Shown here in pieces: positions 2,550 to 42,629 of a stretch of DNA of 43,863 nt. The notes under the pieces are model-generated. The model had not been told where the DNA came from. It made no database searches and saw only the letters and a list, made by a program, of their open reading frames with translations. The stretch comes from Verrucomicrobiaceae bacterium (GTDB taxonomy: Bacteria; Verrucomicrobiota; Verrucomicrobiia; Verrucomicrobiales; Verrucomicrobiaceae), in contig JAIYDW010000021.1 in assembly GCA_027487315.1 (NCBI GenBank), positions 1 to 43,863 of the forward strand. Reading direction: 5' to 3'. Numbering within the stretch: the stretch's first letter is position 1; every line of letters starts with the position of its first letter. The position numbers and the translations under genes were made by a program.

Positions 2550-3881
2550 ATGCCCCGCCTCGACACACAACGCATTGCCATTCTCGGCGCCGGTCGCTCC
2601 GGCCTCGCCGCAGCCAGGCTCGCTCGTGTCCACGGCGCTTCCGTCACGGTCTTCGACACCGGCACAACCGCCGAACTCAAATCCAAACTCGCCGCTCTCG
2701 AAGCCGAATCCATCCCCTTCCTCATCGACCAAGCCGCCTCCGACCTCGTCGTCACCCCCGGCCAGTTCGACCTCTGCATTACCAGCCCGGGCATCGACGA
2801 ATCCTGGCCCCTCCCGCAAAAATTCATCACCGCCGGTGTCCCTTTCACCGGCGAAACCGAGTTCGCTTTCACCTTCTGCTCCACACCCATCATCGCCATC
2901 ACCGGCACCAACGGCAAGAGCACCTGCACCGAACTCATCGCCAACATCCTGAACGGCTCCTGCCTCCGCTCCCTCCCCTGCGGCAATCATGGCGTCCCCC
3001 TTTCCGAAGTCCTCACCTCCGGCCAAACCTACGACGTTCTCTCCCTCGAAATCAGCTCCTTCCAACTCGACACCATCGCCACCTTCCGCCCCCGTGTCGG
3101 CATCTGGCTCAACTTCGCCGACGACCACCTCGATCGCTACCCCAACCGCGAGGCCTATTTCGCCGCCAAAGCCCGAATCTTCGAAAACAGCACTCCAGAT
3201 GACCTCGCCGTCGTCCTCCATGGCGAACCCTTCCCCATCGGCTCAGCCCGCCGCGCCACCTTCTCCGCCTTCGGCCTCCCCGCCGACTTCACCTTCTCCG
3301 ACGGCACTTTCTACGCCCACGGCACCGCCTTCGGCTCCAGCGCCGACCTGAACCTTCTTGGCCGCCACAACATGGAGAACGTCCTCGCCGCCCTCATCGC
3401 CTGCGCCGAATTCGGCATCACACCAGCAGCCGGCCTCCAGGCCCTTAAATCCTACGGCGTCCCCCCGCACCGCTGCGAACTCGTCCGCGACTTCGATGGC
3501 CGCCGCTACATCAACGACTCCAAAGCCACCAACGTCCATGCCGTCTGCGCCTGCATCCGCGCCCTCGACGAAACCGTCGTCCTCATCGCTGGCGGCCTCG
3601 ACAAACACCTCGACTACACCCCCCTTCGCGATCTCATCCCCGGCCGTGTCCGCGCCATGGTCACCATCGGCACCATCGCTCAATCTTTGAAGGCCCAATT
3701 CGAAGACCTTATCCCCTGCCAAACCGCACCCGACATGCCCTCCGCGGTCTCCCAAGCCCGCGCCCTCTCCCTTCCCGGAGACGCCATCGTCCTTTCCCCC
3801 ACCACTTCTTCCTTCGACATGTTCAGCGGCTATGCCGAACGCGGAAACGTCTTCCGCACCGCCGCCCTCGCTCTAACCTAA
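2550..3881 (+). CDS. murD: MurD, UDP-MurNAc-L-Ala--D-Glu ligase
   Basis: This cytoplasmic Mur ligase adds D-glutamate to UDP-MurNAc-L-Ala. It is 443 residues long. The N-terminal Rossmann-like domain has GAGRSGLAAARLA starting near residue 13. The ATP-binding loop is GTNGKST at about 119-125. The central EISSFQLD segment and the C-terminal NDSKATNVHA motif, typical of MurD, are present. The ATG at 2550 is preceded by a heptamer repeat rather than a recognisable ribosome-binding site. It follows mraY and precedes a LysM protein in the same orientation. Secure assignment. Confidence 0.96.
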   Translation: MPRLDTQRIAILGAGRSGLAAARLARVHGASVTVFDTGTTAELKSKLAALEAESIPFLIDQAASDLVVTPGQFDLCITSPGIDESWPLPQKFITAGVPFTGETEFAFTFCSTPIIAITGTNGKSTCTELIANILNGSCLRSLPCGNHGVPLSEVLTSGQTYDVLSLEISSFQLDTIATFRPRVGIWLNFADDHLDRYPNREAYFAAKARIFENSTPDDLAVVLHGEPFPIGSARRATFSAFGLPADFTFSDGTFYAHGTAFGSSADLNLLGRHNMENVLAALIACAEFGITPAAGLQALKSYGVPPHRCELVRDFDGRRYINDSKATNVHAVCACIRALDETVVLIAGGLDKHLDYTPLRDLIPGRVRAMVTIGTIAQSLKAQFEDLIPCQTAPDMPSAVSQARALSLPGDAIVLSPTTSSFDMFSGYAERGNVFRTAALALT

Positions 3882-3930
3882 CATCCCTTTCTTTAACCAA
3901 CCAACACATCAACCCAAACACATACCCACA

Positions 3931-4953
3931 ATGAGCACACCAAAAAAGAAAAACAAAGGCACTGACCTCCTCGATAACCTCCTCGGCGGCGAACGCCGTC
4001 GGCACCAAGTCGCCATGATCACCGAAGAAGGTGACTGGAATCAACACGAATCCAACAGCGGCATGGCGCGCGTCTTCGTCGTCATGCTCCTCGTCCACGT
4101 CGTCCTCATCGGCAGCATCATCGTCTATGACTTCATCGGCACCGAAGAGACCCAGTCCGCTCCCGCCCCTGTTGTGAGCAAGACCCCCACGACCGATCCC
4201 CACGAACTCTCTTCCACTCCTGTGAAGAGCTCCCTCCCTGAGGCCACCACCTCCGCCGTCGCCAGCTCCTCCGATATCCCCACCAGCGGCGAATACGAAG
4301 TCAAATCCGGCGACTCTCTCCCCACCATTGCCGCCAGCCAAGGCGTCGATATCAAGGAACTCATCGCCCTCAATCACCTCGAAGACGGCAACATCGAGCT
4401 GAATCCCCTCACCATCCTCAAGCTCCCTGCTCGCAAAGTCGCCGAGCCCGCTCAAGTCGCTGTCGTCAAAGACTTCCCACCCATGCCCGTAGCAAACGCC
4501 GAAACCCCCAGCGCTCCTGCCGCTGCGGTCATCCCAATCGAGCAAACCCCACCCGCCCCTCTTCCGGCAGTGGTCTCTCTGGCCGACAACCAACCCTCCA
4601 TCGACACCACTCCCGCCCCGGCTACACCCGCCATGGACTCAGCTCCGCCCGCTCCAGCGCCCGCACCCGTCGCCGAGCCCGCCAAACCCGAGCCCGTCAA
4701 ATTGGTCGCTCCAAAACCCGTCCCAACCCCCACCCAAATCGCTGAGAAAAAACCCGCCCCCAAGACCGAACCCAAACCTGCCGCCAAAACCACCTCCTCC
4801 GGTAGCCGCAGCCACACCATGGCTAAGGGCGACACCCTCTACGGTCTGGCTCGCAAATACGGCGTCTCCGCTGCCGCCATCCAAAAAGCCAACAACATCA
4901 GCAAGCCCGAGTCCATCCGCGACGGCGCCAAACTCATCATCCCAGCCAAGTAA
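3931..4953 (+). CDS. membrane-anchored protein with two LysM domains in the murein cluster
   Basis: The 340-residue protein has a short charged cytoplasmic N-terminus and one transmembrane helix at about 47-67. A LysM domain follows at about 122-166 (YEVKSGDSLPTIA onward). A long Pro/Ala/Lys-rich linker spans about 170-290, and a second LysM lies at about 293-338 (HTMAKGDTLYGLARKYGV onward). LysM binds GlcNAc-containing glycans, so the protein probably anchors the inner membrane to peptidoglycan. It sits between murD and ftsW. The type II membrane topology resembles that of small divisome proteins, but no sequence link to FtsL or FtsN is seen. Its exact function is not known, and a division or elongation role is inferred from position only. 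Confidence 0.85.
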   Translation: MSTPKKKNKGTDLLDNLLGGERRRHQVAMITEEGDWNQHESNSGMARVFVVMLLVHVVLIGSIIVYDFIGTEETQSAPAPVVSKTPTTDPHELSSTPVKSSLPEATTSAVASSSDIPTSGEYEVKSGDSLPTIAASQGVDIKELIALNHLEDGNIELNPLTILKLPARKVAEPAQVAVVKDFPPMPVANAETPSAPAAAVIPIEQTPPAPLPAVVSLADNQPSIDTTPAPATPAMDSAPPAPAPAPVAEPAKPEPVKLVAPKPVPTPTQIAEKKPAPKTEPKPAAKTTSSGSRSHTMAKGDTLYGLARKYGVSAAAIQKANNISKPESIRDGAKLIIPAK

Positions 4954-19713: not shown

Positions 19714-20832
19714 ATGTCAGATTCCACCCCCACCGCTACCGTTGTTGCCGAAGACACCATCGCCACCCTAGGCTCAGTCGATGACTACCTCCGCTTCTGC
19801 CAAGAATACGACGCCTCCGACCTCCACCTCGCCACCGCTTCCCAGCCCATCTGGCGTCGCTATGGCAACCTCCAGCCCATCTGGAACAACGCCGCCGTCC
19901 TCACCGCCGAAGACTGCCGCCGACTCGCTTACCAGTTCCTGACTGAGGCCCAAATCAATCAACTCGAAACCAAGGGCGATGTCGACTTCGCCTACTCCCC
20001 CCCCTATGGCCGCTTCCGCGCCTCCGTCGTCCAGCAGCGCCTCGGCATCGACATGACCTTCCGCGTCATCTCCGGCCGCATCCGCTCCGTTGACGAACTC
20101 GGCCTCCCCGACACCGTCCGCACCCTCATCCGCTACCACAACGGCCTCGTCCTCGTCACCGGCCCCGTCGGTTGCGGCAAATCCACCACCCTCGCCGCCC
20201 TCGTCGACGAGATCAATAAAGAGCGCCAGGACCACATCATCACCCTCGAAGACCCCATCGAATTCGTCTTCGAACCCAAAGGTTGCCACATCAACCAGCG
20301 CGAGGTCCACACCCACACCGAATCCTTCGCCTCCGCCCTTCGCGGCTCCCTCCGGGAAGACCCCGACATCATCATGGTCGGTGAAATGCGCGACCTCGAA
20401 ACCATCTCCCTCGCCATCACTGCTGCCGAAACTGGTCACTTGGTCCTCGGCACCCTCCACACCGGCAACGCCGCCCGCACCCTGGACCGCGTCCTCGACG
20501 TGTTCCCCATCGATCAGCGTGAGCAAATCCGCATCATGGTCTCCGAATCCCTCCGCGGCATCGTCTCCCAGCAGCTCGTCCCCCGCACCGACGGCAACGG
20601 ACGCGCCATGGCCCTCGAAGTCCTCGTCAACAACGCCGCCGTCTCCAACTGCATTCGCGAAGGCAAAACCTTCATGCTCAATGGCGTCATGCAAACCGGC
20701 AAAAACCTCGGCATGATCACCATGGACGACTCCCTCCGAAACCTCTTCTCCTCCGGCCAGATCAGTCAGGAGGAATGCATGTCCCGCGCCGAAGACAAAA
20801 TCCTCATGCGCGCCTTCTTCAAAGGCGCCTGA
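19714..20832 (+). CDS. PilT-family type IV pilus retraction ATPase (first of pair)
   Basis: This 372-residue hexameric secretion ATPase has an N-terminal PAS-like domain and a RecA core. Seen: Walker A GPVGCGKST (150-158), Asp box ITLEDPIEF, Walker B region DPDIIMVGEMRDLETI, and His box TGHLVLGTLHTGNA. It drives disassembly of type IV pili from the cytoplasmic side. The serine or threonine usual before GCGKS is replaced by Val-Gly-Cys, a common variant. Which of the two paralogues acts as PilT and which as PilU cannot be decided by eye. Confidence 0.9.
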   Translation: MSDSTPTATVVAEDTIATLGSVDDYLRFCQEYDASDLHLATASQPIWRRYGNLQPIWNNAAVLTAEDCRRLAYQFLTEAQINQLETKGDVDFAYSPPYGRFRASVVQQRLGIDMTFRVISGRIRSVDELGLPDTVRTLIRYHNGLVLVTGPVGCGKSTTLAALVDEINKERQDHIITLEDPIEFVFEPKGCHINQREVHTHTESFASALRGSLREDPDIIMVGEMRDLETISLAITAAETGHLVLGTLHTGNAARTLDRVLDVFPIDQREQIRIMVSESLRGIVSQQLVPRTDGNGRAMALEVLVNNAAVSNCIREGKTFMLNGVMQTGKNLGMITMDDSLRNLFSSGQISQEECMSRAEDKILMRAFFKGA

Positions 20833-36711: not shown

Positions 36712-39255
36712 ATGCGCCTAGCCTCCCCAGAATGGTTCCTCCTCCTCCCCGCCCTCCTCGCCGTCGGCTGGTTCTGGCCGCGCCTCCAACTCCACCGCCC
36801 CCTCCGCGCCCTCGCCCTCCTCCTCCTCGTCTTCCTCGCCACCCAACCCCAAACCCGCCGCTTCTCCGACGGCCTCGACCTCTGGGTCCTCGTTGACCAG
36901 TCCGACTCCGCCCGCGAACTCCTCGCCCCCAAACTCCCCGAGTGGGAAACCCTCCTTACCCGCTCCAAAGCCGCCGACGACCGCCTCCGCTTCATCGACT
37001 TCGCCACCGAAGCCGTCCCCCGCGGCGCCCAGATCCGCTCCGGCGCCGATGGCCAAAAATACGCCGGCCCCACCCACTCCACCCGCCTCAATAGCGCCAC
37101 CTTACTGACCCTCTCCCAGCTCGACCCCAATCGCGCCTCCCGCCTCCTCGTCCTCACCGACGGCGCCTCCACCGAACCCCTCGACGGCCTCGCCGACCGC
37201 CTCATCGCCCAGGACGTCCCCCTCGACTACCGCCTCGCCGTCCGCGAAGGCGCAGGCGACTGGCGCATCGCCGACCTCATCGTCCCCCGCCGCGTCCAGC
37301 TCCAACAAGCCTTCCTCATCGAAGCCGTGATCATGGGAGATCGCGACGGCCCCATCACCGTCGAAATCCTCCGCGACGATCAAACCCTCGCCACCCAGCA
37401 AATCGACATCCTCGACGGCATCGGCCGCCTCCGCCTCTCCACCCGCCTCACCCAGCCCGGAGCCGCCCGCTACACCGCCCGCTTGCAGCACCCGCAGGAC
37501 ACCCTCACCGGCAACAACACCGCCTCCCAGTGGGTCGAAGTCCAGTCCGGCCCCCGCATCCTCCTCTTCACCAACTACGAATCCGATCCCCTCGCCACCG
37601 CCCTCGCCGCCCAGGGCTTCACCGTCGAAACCCGCACCGACACCGCCCAGGCCACCATCGGCGACCTCACCGGCACCAAAGTCGTCCTCCTCAACAACGT
37701 CCCCGCCTATCGCCTCCCCACCCCCTTCCTCCGCGCCCTCGACTTCTTCGTGAATCAGCAGGGCGGCGGCCTCGCCATGATCGGCGGCAAATACGCCTTC
37801 GCCTCCGGCGGCTACTTCGGCTCCCCCGTCGAACCCCTCCTCCCCGTCTCCATGGAACTCAAACAAGAGCACCGCAAACTCGTCACCGCCCTCGCCATCG
37901 TCATGGACCGCTCAGGCTCCATGGCCGCCACCGTCCCCGGCTCCGGACGCCAGAAAATGGAACTCGCCAATGAAGGCGCCGGCCGTGCCATCCAGCTCCT
38001 CGGCGACTCCGACTTCATCACCGTCTCCGTCGTCGACAGTGAAGCCCACCCCATCTCTCCCCTCGTCGCCGTTGGCCCCAACCGGGGCCAACTCGAAGAC
38101 GTCGTCCGCCGCCAACAATCCGCCGGTGGCGGCATCTTCGTTTACAACGGCCTCAAAGCCGCCTGGGACGAACTCAAAAAAGCCAATGTCGGCCAGCGTC
38201 ACATCATCCTCTTCTCCGACGCCGCCGACTCCGAGCAACCCGACGATTATGTGAATCTCCTCGCCGAAATGACCGCGCAAAAAGCCACCGTATCCGTCAT
38301 CGGCCTCGGCACCGAAAGCGACCCCGACGCCGACTTCCTCAAAGACATCGCCAAACGCGGCAACGGCCGCATCTTCTTCAACCAGGACGCCAACGAACTC
38401 CCCGCCCTCTTCGCCCAGGAAACCGTCGCCGTCGCCCGCTCCACCTTCATCGAAGAGCCCGTCCCCGTCAAAGGCACCCCCGGCTGGTTGGAAATGGCCG
38501 CCGGCACCCTCGACTGGCTCCCACAAGTGGACGGCTACAACCTCAGCTACCTCCGCCCCGGCGCCTCCCAGGCCCTCATCTCCGGCGACGACTACGCCGC
38601 CCCCATGCTCGCCTTCTGGCAGCGCGGCGCAGGCCGCACCGCCACCCTATCCTTCCCCCTCGGTGGCGACTTCTCCGCCAAGACCCGCGCCTGGCCCGGC
38701 TACGGCGGCTTCGTCCGCAGCCTCACCCGCTGGCTCATGGGCGAGTCCATCCCCCCCGGCCTCGGCCTCCGCACCACCCTCGACGGCACCCGCCTGAAAG
38801 CCGACCTCTTCTACGACGACACCTGGACCCAAAAAATCGCTGAGCAGGGCCCCCAACTTCTCCTCACCACCAACGAAGACACCACCACCCACACCATCCC
38901 CTGGTTAAAGCTCGCCCCCGGTCACTTCCAAGCCAGCCTCGACCTCGAAGACGCCACCCTCGTCCGCGGCGCCGTCCGCATCGGCAATAATGCCCTCCCC
39001 TTCGGCCCCCTCAACATCATCACCAACCCCGAGTGGACCTTCGACCGCACCCGCCTCACCGACCTCGCCACCACCGCCGCCCGCAGCGGCGGCAGCGAGC
39101 GCCTCGACCTCTCCGACATCTGGCGCGCCCCCCGCCCCCCCGCCTGGTCCCCCTTAACTCGCCCCCTCCTCATCACCTTCCTCCTCATCCTCCTCCTAGA
39201 AGCCTACCAAACCCGCACCGGCTGGCCCCAAAGTACCCGTCATCGCTCCGCGTGA
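36712..39255 (+). CDS. large VWA-domain membrane protein with GATase-like domain
   Basis: The 847-residue protein has two N-terminal transmembrane helices (about 8-20 and 28-44). A first degenerate VWA-like domain follows (LWVLVDQSDSA near residue 60). A glutamine-amidotransferase-like fold spans about 275-385 (ILLFTNYESDPLATALAAQG to GGGLAMIGGKYAF). A true VWA domain follows with the metal-site motif DRSGS at 399-403. A C-terminal helix (PLLITFLLILLLEA) ends near the stop. This architecture is common next to BatA-like genes in Verrucomicrobia and Planctomycetes. Function unknown. The last codons (TRHRSA) come from a repeat found again at 39914-39943. Confidence 0.84.
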   Translation: MRLASPEWFLLLPALLAVGWFWPRLQLHRPLRALALLLLVFLATQPQTRRFSDGLDLWVLVDQSDSARELLAPKLPEWETLLTRSKAADDRLRFIDFATEAVPRGAQIRSGADGQKYAGPTHSTRLNSATLLTLSQLDPNRASRLLVLTDGASTEPLDGLADRLIAQDVPLDYRLAVREGAGDWRIADLIVPRRVQLQQAFLIEAVIMGDRDGPITVEILRDDQTLATQQIDILDGIGRLRLSTRLTQPGAARYTARLQHPQDTLTGNNTASQWVEVQSGPRILLFTNYESDPLATALAAQGFTVETRTDTAQATIGDLTGTKVVLLNNVPAYRLPTPFLRALDFFVNQQGGGLAMIGGKYAFASGGYFGSPVEPLLPVSMELKQEHRKLVTALAIVMDRSGSMAATVPGSGRQKMELANEGAGRAIQLLGDSDFITVSVVDSEAHPISPLVAVGPNRGQLEDVVRRQQSAGGGIFVYNGLKAAWDELKKANVGQRHIILFSDAADSEQPDDYVNLLAEMTAQKATVSVIGLGTESDPDADFLKDIAKRGNGRIFFNQDANELPALFAQETVAVARSTFIEEPVPVKGTPGWLEMAAGTLDWLPQVDGYNLSYLRPGASQALISGDDYAAPMLAFWQRGAGRTATLSFPLGGDFSAKTRAWPGYGGFVRSLTRWLMGESIPPGLGLRTTLDGTRLKADLFYDDTWTQKIAEQGPQLLLTTNEDTTTHTIPWLKLAPGHFQASLDLEDATLVRGAVRIGNNALPFGPLNIITNPEWTFDRTRLTDLATTAARSGGSERLDLSDIWRAPRPPAWSPLTRPLLITFLLILLLEAYQTRTGWPQSTRHRSA

Positions 39256-39262
39256 CGCCTCC
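39233..39262. repeat. palindromic element, family C, copy 1
   Basis: A 30-bp sequence containing CGTCATCGCTCCGCGTGACG (imperfect hairpin: CGTCA/TGACG and CGC/GCG arms) spans the stop codon of the large VWA gene. It is identical to 39914-39943. Confidence 0.8.
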
Positions 39263-39270
39263 CCATCCCG

Positions 39271-39813
39271 ATGAAGCCCCCAAAAGAATTCAAATGGCTC
39301 ATTGTCTCGCTCGTCGTCCTTGGACTGGCCTACATATACCCGATCTTTTTTGCATGGTCTGGTCTTTGCTGTTGGACAGAAGAAATAGGCTTGAATACCG
39401 GACGAAAGCGCAGCCGCAGCTACCTCTTTTGGACTCGCATCTCCGAGACTGAGTCACCAACTTGGTTAAGCAGTATGCTAAATACACACCCTTCCTCGCC
39501 CGAAGATCGCTGGAAACTAGTCAATACCACGTCACCCGGGGTTTCGTTTTCACCTCAATACTATTACCACCGTGCCTTGTCCCAAATTAGAGAATTGGAA
39601 ATGTGCTGCGAGCGACTGAACCTCTCTCCAAACGCAAGACTCCTGCTTGCAGAAGCCTTGATCAACCACTGGCGTCGAGATGGAGATTATCAAGATGCCG
39701 ATAGTCTCATCCTTCGACCACTGAGGAAGTTGAAGGGGACTGACAAACATGGCAATTCCGTATCTGACCTCGCAGTAAAACAGATAGTTGGTAGCATCTC
39801 AGAGTTGCCTTAG
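39271..39813 (+). CDS. hypothetical membrane-anchored protein, low GC
   Basis: The 180-residue protein has an N-terminal transmembrane helix (WLIVSLVVLGLAYIYPIFFAW), a short Cys-Cys pair, and a mostly polar C-terminal part with a helical stretch (RELEMCCERLNLSPNARLLLAEAL). No family is recognised. Base composition is close to 50% GC, clearly lower than the ~68% of the VWA gene before it, suggesting transfer. It is bracketed by two copies of the family C repeat and by two versions of the VWA gene tail. Confidence 0.6.
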   Translation: MKPPKEFKWLIVSLVVLGLAYIYPIFFAWSGLCCWTEEIGLNTGRKRSRSYLFWTRISETESPTWLSSMLNTHPSSPEDRWKLVNTTSPGVSFSPQYYYHRALSQIRELEMCCERLNLSPNARLLLAEALINHWRRDGDYQDADSLILRPLRKLKGTDKHGNSVSDLAVKQIVGSISELP

Positions 39814-39830
39814 AACCCAATTCACGCCGC

Positions 39831-39936
39831 CTCTTAACGTCCCCCGCCTGCCCCCTACTGATCGCCTTCCTCCTCATCGAAGCCCTCCAAACCCAAACCG
39901 CACGCCCTCCCAAAGGTACCCGTCATCGCTCCGCGT
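39831..39936 (+). pseudogene. remnant of a VWA protein C-terminus
   Basis: Read in one frame this stretch encodes PLLIAFLLIEALQTQT...GTRHRSA and a stop. It closely parallels the C-terminus of the 36712-39255 protein (PLLITFLLILLLEAYQTRT...STRHRSA and stop). There is no open frame upstream, because it is preceded by the 39271-39813 gene. It is either a duplicated tail left by an insertion or the last trace of a deleted paralogue. Confidence 0.65.
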
Positions 39937-39943
39937 GACGCCT
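39914..39943. repeat. palindromic element, family C, copy 2
   Basis: This is a 30-bp exact copy of 39233-39262. It again spans the stop codon of a VWA-tail-like frame. Confidence 0.8.
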
Positions 39944-39964
39944 CCTCAGAGTATTGCAAGATCA

Positions 39965-40372
39965 CTAGACACCCGCATCCTTGATCAGGATCATGGAATC
40001 CTCCACAATGACCTGACATCTCCCCTCAATGGCGATCACAGTCAGCAGCTCGAGTGCCGTCACTTCAGTTTCATATTCAAACGAAACGGTTCTTTCATGG
40101 ATGTCGTCGTCAACCGCGACTCGCACCCTCTTACTGGGGTCATCTCGTTGCATTTGGCCAAAAACCGGACCTTCCAATACCTCCGCCAATTCCTTCAATC
40201 TCCAAGATTGACCTTGAGCTGAAGGCACCTTCACAAGCGGAAGCCAAATCGCAGCAGATGCAGATTTGATTAGGACACCAACCTCCAGTCCATGACTTGG
40301 GATTGCCATTTGACGTCCACCACAGCCCGTTAAAAGAGCGGTCAATAACAGCGCGTAGATTCGTTTCTTCAT
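39965..40372 (-). CDS. lipoprotein with STN/secretin-like segment
   Basis: The ATG at 40372 gives a 135-residue protein with a lipoprotein signal (MKKRIYALLLTALLTGCGG, Cys17). The C-terminal half (VSFEYETEVTALELLTVIA and CQVIVEDSMILI) has the beta-alpha-beta rhythm of the short N-terminal domain of secretins and TonB receptors (STN). It may be a periplasmic adaptor, but the call rests on pattern only. An open frame upstream is ignored because it would bury the signal peptide. GC is lower than the genome core. Confidence 0.6.
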   Translation of the reverse strand: MKKRIYALLLTALLTGCGGRQMAIPSHGLEVGVLIKSASAAIWLPLVKVPSAQGQSWRLKELAEVLEGPVFGQMQRDDPSKRVRVAVDDDIHERTVSFEYETEVTALELLTVIAIEGRCQVIVEDSMILIKDAGV

Positions 40373-40485
40373 AACTGCATAAAACAGCCTATCCGAACAG
40401 AGCGTCACACCATCCACTCCAACAAGCAACCCCTCACCCCAAAGCGCCCGTTGAATTCCCTCGCTCTTTACCACACGCTCCCTCC

Positions 40486-40731
40486 ATGCAAATCACCTTC
40501 GAACTCACCCCCTGCGAAGAAAGTGGCGGCTACATCGCCCGGTGGGACGACCCCGCAGGCGGCGGCATCTGCACCCAGGGAGATAGCTTTGCAGACTTGG
40601 ATGACATGGTGCGCGACGCCGTGGCAGGATACTTCGCCGATCGAGAAAAACCCGCCAGCATCCGCCTCCGCCACTCTCCACCATCCGTGCTTCTTGACGA
40701 ACCATCACACCGACCCCACCTTTCTCCATGA
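40486..40731 (+). CDS. HicB-like antitoxin-family protein
   Basis: The 81-residue protein has the partial RNase-H-like HicB fold: beta strand start ITFELTPCEESGGYIARW, then CTQGDSFADLDDMVRDAVAGYF, the typical strand-helix pattern. No HicA toxin is adjacent. Its stop overlaps the start of the next gene (ATGA at 40728-40731), so it is translationally coupled to a VapB-like antitoxin. Confidence 0.7.
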   Translation: MQITFELTPCEESGGYIARWDDPAGGGICTQGDSFADLDDMVRDAVAGYFADREKPASIRLRHSPPSVLLDEPSHRPHLSP

Positions 40732-40961
40732 GAACCACGCTCACCCTAGATGACGACGTACTCGCCACGGCGCGCTCGCTGGCTGCTCAGGGTTCAGTTC
40801 CGCTCGGTACCGTCATATCAGACCTCGCTCGCCGCGGTCTTCACCCCACCCCTCCGAAACCCGCCTCAACCCGAAACGGCATTCCGCTTTTCCCCGTCCG
40901 AGCTAACGCGGGAACAGTCACCCCGGACATCGTGAAGTCCCTGGCAGAGGAGGTTGATTGA
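40728..40961 (+). CDS. VapB-like antitoxin
   Basis: The 77-residue protein has an N-terminal ribbon-helix-helix type start (MRTTLTLDDDVLATARSLAA), which binds operator DNA, and a C-terminal tail that would wrap the toxin. It starts within the stop of the HicB-like gene and ends overlapping the TTG start of the PIN toxin gene (TTGA at 40958-40961). Operator sites were not identified. Confidence 0.78.
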   Translation: MRTTLTLDDDVLATARSLAAQGSVPLGTVISDLARRGLHPTPPKPASTRNGIPLFPVRANAGTVTPDIVKSLAEEVD

Positions 40962-41395
40962 ACCGCTACCTCCTTGATCTCAACACGCTGCTGGCCCTCC
41001 TTGACCCGCAGCACATTCACCATGACGCCGCCCATCATTGGGTTGAGACGACCCCTAGCCTCCGCTTCCTCACCTGCCCGCTCGTGCAAAACGGCGTCAT
41101 TCGCGTGGCCAGCCAAAAGGCTTATCCCAACAGCCTCGGTAATGCCGCAGTCGTTCATGCCATCCTCTCCACCTTCTGTGCCGATCCCAGACACGAATTC
41201 TGTCCTGATGACATTTCTCTCCTAGCCCCAGCTCATTTAGCAAATCCAGCACAACTCACCCCATCTCGGGTGACGGATCTTTACCTTCTCGCATTGGCAA
41301 AACACCATGGTGCTAGCCTCGCCACCTTTGACCGCAGGATCCCCGCCGCCGCCATTCCCAATGGCGATGCGCACCTCAATATCATTGAGGCCTAA
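40958..41395 (+). CDS. VapC-family PIN-domain toxin
   Basis: The 145-residue PIN-domain protein is a predicted Mg-dependent ribonuclease toxin neutralised by the preceding VapB. Acidic PIN residues are visible in YLLDLNTLLALLD near the N-terminus, VTDLYLLALAKHHG in the middle, and ATFDRRI near the C-terminus. The start is TTG at 40958, overlapping the vapB stop. VapC proteins usually cleave initiator tRNA or rRNA; the target here is unknown. Confidence 0.82.
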   Translation: MNRYLLDLNTLLALLDPQHIHHDAAHHWVETTPSLRFLTCPLVQNGVIRVASQKAYPNSLGNAAVVHAILSTFCADPRHEFCPDDISLLAPAHLANPAQLTPSRVTDLYLLALAKHHGASLATFDRRIPAAAIPNGDAHLNIIEA

Positions 41396-41542
41396 TCGAC
41401 GGGCTTTCACAGCCAAGACATCGTGCGGCCGTAACGCATTACCCGCCCATCATTGCCACCGCCACAGTTCCGCTTCGCGCGAATTGACCCCCAAATCAAT
41501 TCCCCCTTCCCCAACAAATCGAAATCGATTACCATTCGACCC

Positions 41543-41989
41543 ATGACCCTCTCCGATTTAAACCCGGACGCCCTCGCGGAACTCGAAGCCAAACTCACCC
41601 GCGACCTCGAAATGGTCCGCCGCGTCCGCGCCCTCCTTTTGGAACATCAGTCCGCGCACCTGATCCCCCCAGCGGCTCCCCCTCCTCCAGCCGCACCAGC
41701 AACCCCACCTCTCCCCGCATCCCCGCCTATCCCCATCCGACCCATCAACGAAATTCTCCTCGAAGCCCTGCCCACCATGCCCGAACAAGGGTTCTTCATC
41801 GAAGACCTCAAGCGCGCCTGCAAAACACCCGGCCGTAGCCTCCCAGATTCCGACACCGTGAAAGCCTTCCTCAGGCAGGGCGTGCGAAAAGGCCTCGTCA
41901 TCGTCGCAGACATCCGCTCGGGCCGCCGCGGAAGCCTCTACAAACACACCCTTCCCCGCCCCACTCCCCCGGAAACCCCGCCCGCTTAA
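41543..41989 (+). CDS. hypothetical protein with coiled coil and possible winged-helix domain
   Basis: The ATG at 41543 gives 148 residues: a charged helix (ALAELEAKLTRDLEMVRRVRALLLEHQ), a Pro/Ala-rich linker, and a compact domain (NEILLEALPTMP, IEDLKRAC, DTVKAFLRQGVRKGLVIVA, RGSLYKHT) with the helix and wing pattern of a winged-helix DNA-binding module. It has no signal peptide. ATCGATTACC at 41524-41533, just before the start, matches the repeat array 64 bp downstream of the stop, so it may bind that motif. Function inferred, not recognised. Confidence 0.55.
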   Translation: MTLSDLNPDALAELEAKLTRDLEMVRRVRALLLEHQSAHLIPPAAPPPPAAPATPPLPASPPIPIRPINEILLEALPTMPEQGFFIEDLKRACKTPGRSLPDSDTVKAFLRQGVRKGLVIVADIRSGRRGSLYKHTLPRPTPPETPPA

Positions 41990-42353: not shown

Positions 42354-42629
42354 CATCCTCAAAACCCCAAACTTCCCGATTACATTCGACGGCATCCCCT
42401 GCCATCCCGCAGCCGAATTCCTCCAGTCCATCTCCGACACACTCGCCACGGGCCACAGACTCAACACGCCGCCAAGCACAAACCCTCAACCCAAACAGCT
42501 CACCCTCCACAACACCTCACACCACGCCCATAGCCTCTCGATCACACCCTTCATCTTGCTCTTTCATCCCCCTTAGAAATAAGCTAAAACACCCCGAATT
42601 CCCAAAAAAAATCCTCCCGTTCCACTGCG

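Follow-up and report, generated by a model that had tools for sequence, protein, structure and literature searches.

Prophage e14 in icd is a known case in which the 3′ end of a gene stands in two versions around foreign DNA. The same arrangement is seen at the locus analysed here, where the 3′ end of a gene for a VWA-domain protein occurs in two versions around DNA that is probably foreign. In contrast to e14, however, the VWA slot shows no recombinase and no gene-specific pair of attachment sites, and its cargo is one small gene.

Two further systems bear on the locus. In the part of PMC3733652 that deals with GTAG REPs and REPtrons, these REPs are short imperfect palindromes that are multicopy, lie mostly between genes and often supply stop codons to neighbouring genes, while large REP clusters can take in flanking DNA. 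There is therefore precedent for a REP at the end of a gene. The palindromes described below share the short imperfect form, the copy number, the mostly intergenic placement and the supply of stop codons, and they also carry a GTAG tag in genomes G006 and G019 and in the VWA copy of G003, and flank RAYT-type genes in G019 and G006. They differ from that account in that the window copies carry GTAC, in that copies here are single or in direct pairs rather than in inverted dimers, and in that no cognate RAYT was found in the source genome, G000. Homology-facilitated illegitimate recombination (PMC3240628) is likewise a named, known system, and one homologous and one illegitimate end would give the displaced tail of the VWA slot in a single event; its proposed occurrence here is read from the anatomy of the locus. 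Taken as a whole, the locus is ordinary gene turnover at a slot plus a REP family, and it illustrates clearly, on a small scale, how genes are replaced at one fixed place in the chromosome of uncultured Verrucomicrobiota.

The VWA tail and its second copy

The window, by which we mean the whole stretch of 43,863 nucleotides that was analysed (JAIYDW010000021.1), is contig 64 of G000, a 5.87-Mb draft genome (GCA_027487315.1), with which three other genomes of the same genus were compared. The features of the locus are as follows.

36712..39255, + strand: VWA-domain gene, 847 aa (Pfam VWA, E 5e-12), with its final codons and TGA inside a REP-type palindrome
39161..39265, + strand: tail 1, the stretch that recurs downstream (self-comparison)
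39239..39256, + strand: REP1, palindrome core GTCATCGCTCCGCGTGAC with GTACCC in front (match count in G000; hairpin fold)
39271..39813, + strand: slot gene of G000, a 180-aa ORF between both tails, with a hydrophobic N-terminal stretch and low GC
39850..39948, + strand: tail 2, the VWA tail in a second, divergent version that includes REP2, common to G003 from 39866 onward
39922..39939, + strand: REP2, an 18-base core identical to REP1
39965..40474, − strand: small lipoprotein-like gene to the right of the slot (ATG-start form from 40372, 135 aa)

The original prediction held that the last ~100 bp of the VWA gene recur after the gene at 39271-39813 and that they include a 30-bp identical palindromic segment over the stop codon, and both statements were confirmed. 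Self-comparison of 7,863 bp aligned the two tails at 77.8% identity over 108 columns (E 2.7e-18), a second comparison split the same pair into two blocks in collinear order, of 40 nt (93%) and 29 nt (90%), and the 30 identical bases lie at 39233-39262 and 39916-39945. The 18-base palindrome is present in two copies in the window, as against 0.10 expected by chance.

Homologues of the VWA gene were found in 53 of the 57 relatives. In G000 a REP-type palindrome has settled at the 3′ end of this gene, and REP1 provides the final codons and the stop, so that the protein ends in ...STRHRSA-stop; the C-termini of the aligned relatives other than G003 are different and lack the REP-coded residues. 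The slot gene starts 15 bp 3′ of the VWA stop in the same direction, and its transcription probably proceeds via read-through from VWA. No terminator-like site was found in 39000-40100.

Tail 2 had been described as a decayed fragment, which is correct only in part. In G000 it still matches VWA by tblastn (E 5e-7), its reading frame is that of VWA as far as the same TGA and is open for 47 codons upstream, and its indels, of 9 and 3 bases, are multiples of three. It thus looks like the former end of a working gene. In G003, on the other hand, the VWA frame of tail 2 hits a TAA ahead of the REP. The left edge of tail 2 also corresponds to VWA position 39161 in G000 as opposed to 39185 in G003, 24 positions apart, so that the two do not go back to one common junction and more than one event is needed.

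A dispersed REP-type palindrome

The palindrome in the tails is a dispersed REP-type element and is not specific to the VWA gene. While an identical segment does lie at both stops, as predicted, it is not a private mark of the locus, its 18-base core having 28 matches in G000 at up to 3 mismatches as compared with one for the reversed control. A 26-base form of the REP was confined to five of the 57 genomes, with 22 copies in G000, 13 in G001 and 20 in G003, both of the same genus as G000, 24 in G006 and 6 in G019; the remaining 52 had none (reversed control, 0). We assign it to the REP type because it is multicopy, because its outer bases are paired, because it carries the GTAG tag in G006 and because RAYT-type genes end in or at its copies.

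The window copies have the 20-40 bp imperfect-palindrome or hairpin form of GTAG-type REPs, and the family is, like these, multicopy and mostly extragenic, its placement being judged roughly from open frames. The REP1 hairpin was calculated at -8.6 kcal/mol (z -2.2), and REP2 has a z of -1.5. Pairing was counted after 6 of 89 copies, in which the head motif is absent, had been dropped; the outer base pair covaries, being G-C in 50 and A-T in 28 of the remaining 83, and the paired fraction was 0.943 against a shuffle mean of 0.915, a value reached by none of 2000 shuffles, or by 12 of 2000 when only the 31 distinct cores were used. The tag is GTAC in the window copies, GTAG in the G003 copy at the same VWA site and GTAG in 22 of 22 copies in G006, where the REPs are often inverted pairs about 90-155 bp apart.

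A Y1-transposase gene of G019 (L137, G019:C195, around 4043) ends inside a REP, which encodes its ...SSHHRSA-stop, and a transposase of G006 (L139, G006:C336, around 2192), 67% identical to that of G019, stops at the TAG of the REP tag. The G019 protein was matched to the RAYT model NF047646 with an E-value of 7e-16 at 58 bits, below the curated cut-off of 80. These two RAYT-type genes are likely to be a REPtron pair for the family of this palindrome, which is thereby documented as ending both a RAYT-type gene and the unrelated VWA gene.

The RAYT-type genes found next to copies of the family in G019 and G006 lend something to the idea that a RAYT or IS200/IS605-type transposase moves DNA between direct REPs as a single-strand circle, in which case REP1, the slot gene and REP2 would form a one-gene cassette; REP1 and REP2 do point the same way, and different species carry different cargo between them. 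We nevertheless hold this to be highly improbable at the VWA slot. The seven Y1 genes of G000 lie in stretches that were examined and are free of this REP, transposition of a REP leaves ~70 bp of VWA sequence before REP2 unexplained, and comparison of 40 stretches yielded no second gene bracket of this kind. The general form of the idea, that direct REPs delimit one-gene cassettes passed from species to species, perhaps through single-strand transposition of the RAYT type, we likewise consider highly improbable; if it were true, REPs would mark the termini of a minimal cassette system rather than be mere passengers at gene ends.

Two minor features of the family were also recorded. Five related palindromes lie in tandem, about 35 bp apart, at L056 (G000:C51:20837-21015), and the flanks of REPs in G000 (e.g. 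L029, L030 and L044) contain short repeated intergenic words such as CGTCATT, CGCAATC or CACTGAC on the C-rich strand.

The locus in related genomes

The original prediction had proposed a comparison of the locus in relatives, which proved informative in G003 and G001 and did not uncover the full second VWA gene that it had envisaged. In G003 the order is VWA tail 1, a degenerate GTAG-tagged REP, a gene of 124 aa, tail 2 with a perfect REP core and the lipoprotein gene. The frame is thus the same as in G000, but the 440-bp insert between the tails is unrelated to that of G000: alignment of the two middle DNAs gave a local score of 11 against a shuffled mean of 13.5 (297 of 300 shuffles reached it), and blastp found no match between the two slot proteins. 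The G000/G003 lineage accordingly carries a second, divergent tail with its REP a few hundred bases further along, and what lies between the two copies in one species bears no relation to what lies there in the other. G001 matches at 95% identity as far as VWA position 39226, after which unrelated genes follow until homology resumes at 41489. It has neither the REP at the VWA end nor tail 2; its tail is single, but as other genes follow it does not offer a clean empty site.

Sixteen VWA loci (our own, L011 to L024 and that of G002) were examined for a downstream tail, which was seen in two, G000 and G003. No second VWA tail or gene was found in the 14 relatives, in which 1.3-1.5 kb was scanned (5.7 kb in G002), and among the matches listed there was no second full-length close VWA homologue, the others being at most 38% identical, and the homologues of G002 and G009 were split fragments. 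The suggestion that a second VWA paralogue had been lost therefore received no support. In this explanation tail 2 would be the last remnant of a full tandem VWA paralogue that has decayed or been replaced, as its preserved frame, its stop and its indels in multiples of three in G000 would allow; with no downstream copy in any of the 14 relatives and no second close homologue among the matches listed, we consider it unlikely.

The same comparison bears on the other suggestion, insertion of an integrating element that regenerated the tail. Here, as with e14 at icd, an integrase-type element would have entered at the VWA 3′ end, bringing a tail of its own that took the place of the native one and displaced it, and the present segment would be its deleted remnant. 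Two directly ordered tails at the 3′ end of a gene, with foreign low-GC cargo, are what such an element would leave. The identical core is, however, a dispersed REP, and no recognisable recombinase was found in the 180-aa ORF on which this was assessed, the sole ORF between the tails that was taken as a gene, without Pfam or NCBIfam match. The cargo is moreover species-specific, G003 having the same frame around its 440-bp unrelated insert. Finally, the single tail of G001 is 89% identical to tail 1 and 75-80% identical to tail 2 (44-53 bases), whereas the reverse would be predicted if the native tail had been displaced within one lineage, the affinity of tail 2 being uncertain in view of its short VWA-derived part (40-53 compared bases). 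Integration of this kind, one of the two readings offered by the prediction, thus appears quite unlikely.

Origin of the slot gene

The original prediction further noted a lower GC content of the middle gene and took it to favour acquisition, and here the analysis is in agreement. The GC content of the slot gene is 48.6%, compared with 61.2% for the window and 67.7% for the VWA gene, and it is the GC minimum of the window, as none of 867 sliding 543-bp windows is as low. No homologue was found in 56 other relatives. In an even sample of the phylum strong matches were seen in five of 386 other genomes (E 1.8e-25 to 1.5e-9), all five outside its own family; weak matches in 47 further genomes (E up to 0.1), many with internal stops, were left out of this count. 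The gene at 39271-39813 was probably acquired, given its GC, its absence in the 56 relatives, the sporadic homologues in the phylum and the different occupant in G003. A phylum sample of 387 genomes gave a single weak match to the slot gene of G003, and that match is interrupted by a stop.

The slot protein of G000 had no match in Pfam or NCBIfam and none among plasmids, phages or viral contigs. A structure model made with no alignment was poor (pLDDT 57) and was not used for fold searches.

Two levels of divergence between G000 and G003

The two sides of the slot differ markedly in their divergence between G000 and G003. The VWA DNA is 96.9% identical, whereas 39866-40517, which spans tail 2 and the lipoprotein gene, is 78.4% identical; other orthologous stretches (L057/L088 and L115/L087) are at 95.6-97.6%. 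The difference is thus 22% in tail 2 and the lipoprotein gene as against 2-4% in VWA and elsewhere. At fourfold sites divergence was 4.9% in VWA (391 sites) and 30.9% in the lipoprotein gene (55 sites; Fisher p 4.8e-8), a contrast that strong codon bias in VWA may exaggerate, while the comparison with background stretches is independent of codon bias. One row, window 20139-20475 against another locus (344 bp at 72%), was set aside as non-orthologous by position. The lipoprotein gene is found in G000 and G003 at 75% amino acid identity; of 68 family genomes, two others gave weak matches.

Because of this contrast the right side of the slot appears to come from divergent lineages, and its sequences are probably alleles that separated much earlier than the species did. 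Tail 2 is 77-80% identical to tail 1, far more diverged than tail 1 is between species (89-100%), and a recent local copy of the tail does not fit. This tells against a scenario in which tail and REP were duplicated locally in tandem and ordinary genes then entered independently between the copies. We rate it as very unlikely, even though REPs here do occur as direct tandem pairs with a spacing of 34-35 bp, which differ from one species to another, as with two copies at G003 C45 and one at G000 C96.

The favoured explanation of tail 2

Our favoured explanation, to which we give somewhat better than even credence, is that the locus is a gene-exchange slot 3′ of VWA made by recombination rather than a classical integrated element, and that tail 2 was once the 3′ end of a divergent VWA allele and has been displaced. 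Most likely, incoming DNA with a complete VWA 3′ end and a new gene would have recombined homologously in VWA on the left side. On the right side it would have been joined illegitimately, inside or beside the tail of the resident allele, and the resident tail with its REP would have been pushed downstream to become tail 2. Both direct tail copies may then have provided short homology for later swaps of the middle gene. Against this model stands the observation that an intact VWA gene ending in tail-2-type sequence was seen in no genome examined. A displaced gene tail of this kind, probably left over from a divergent allele, can mimic an attachment site.

Other repeats and neighbouring genes

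Further gene-tail duplications at the palindrome, which the prediction had proposed to look for, did not emerge: no other bracket was present in 40 self-compared stretches (L056 and L108 without REP match), in a comparison whose threshold the tail pair of L054 itself falls below. REP-bearing repeats at L055, L056 and L107 were short tandem or 100-bp-spaced copies with no gene between them. A 175-bp direct repeat in L118 (G000:C210; 4994-5168 and 5782-5956), 91% identical and 788 bp apart, brackets one gene that by eye is DJ-1-like. The repeat contains half a REP palindrome fused to another repeat element, abundant in G001 and G003, and was rejected as a gene-tail duplication because it includes this separate abundant element. 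C212:12789-12878 was rejected as a further VWA tail, its upstream part being CTC-rich simple sequence.

Leftover gene tails are not unique to the VWA slot, since a similar 3′ relic lies at 42385-42463 (up to 42508). It comprises the final ~80 bp of a gene, the body of which has given way to other sequence in the window; the gene itself has an open frame in G003 (ORF 3367-4164, reversed contig) and a partial match in G001. At 41488-41627 and 41543-41989 a gene start (MTLSDLNPDAL...) is common to G003 at 96%, where the frame stops after 40 residues as compared with 148 residues in the window. A PIN-domain gene at 40958-41395 (Pfam, E 1e-8) occupies a stretch without match in G003's version of the region; it probably encodes a toxin, and a short ORF that precedes it is antitoxin-like.
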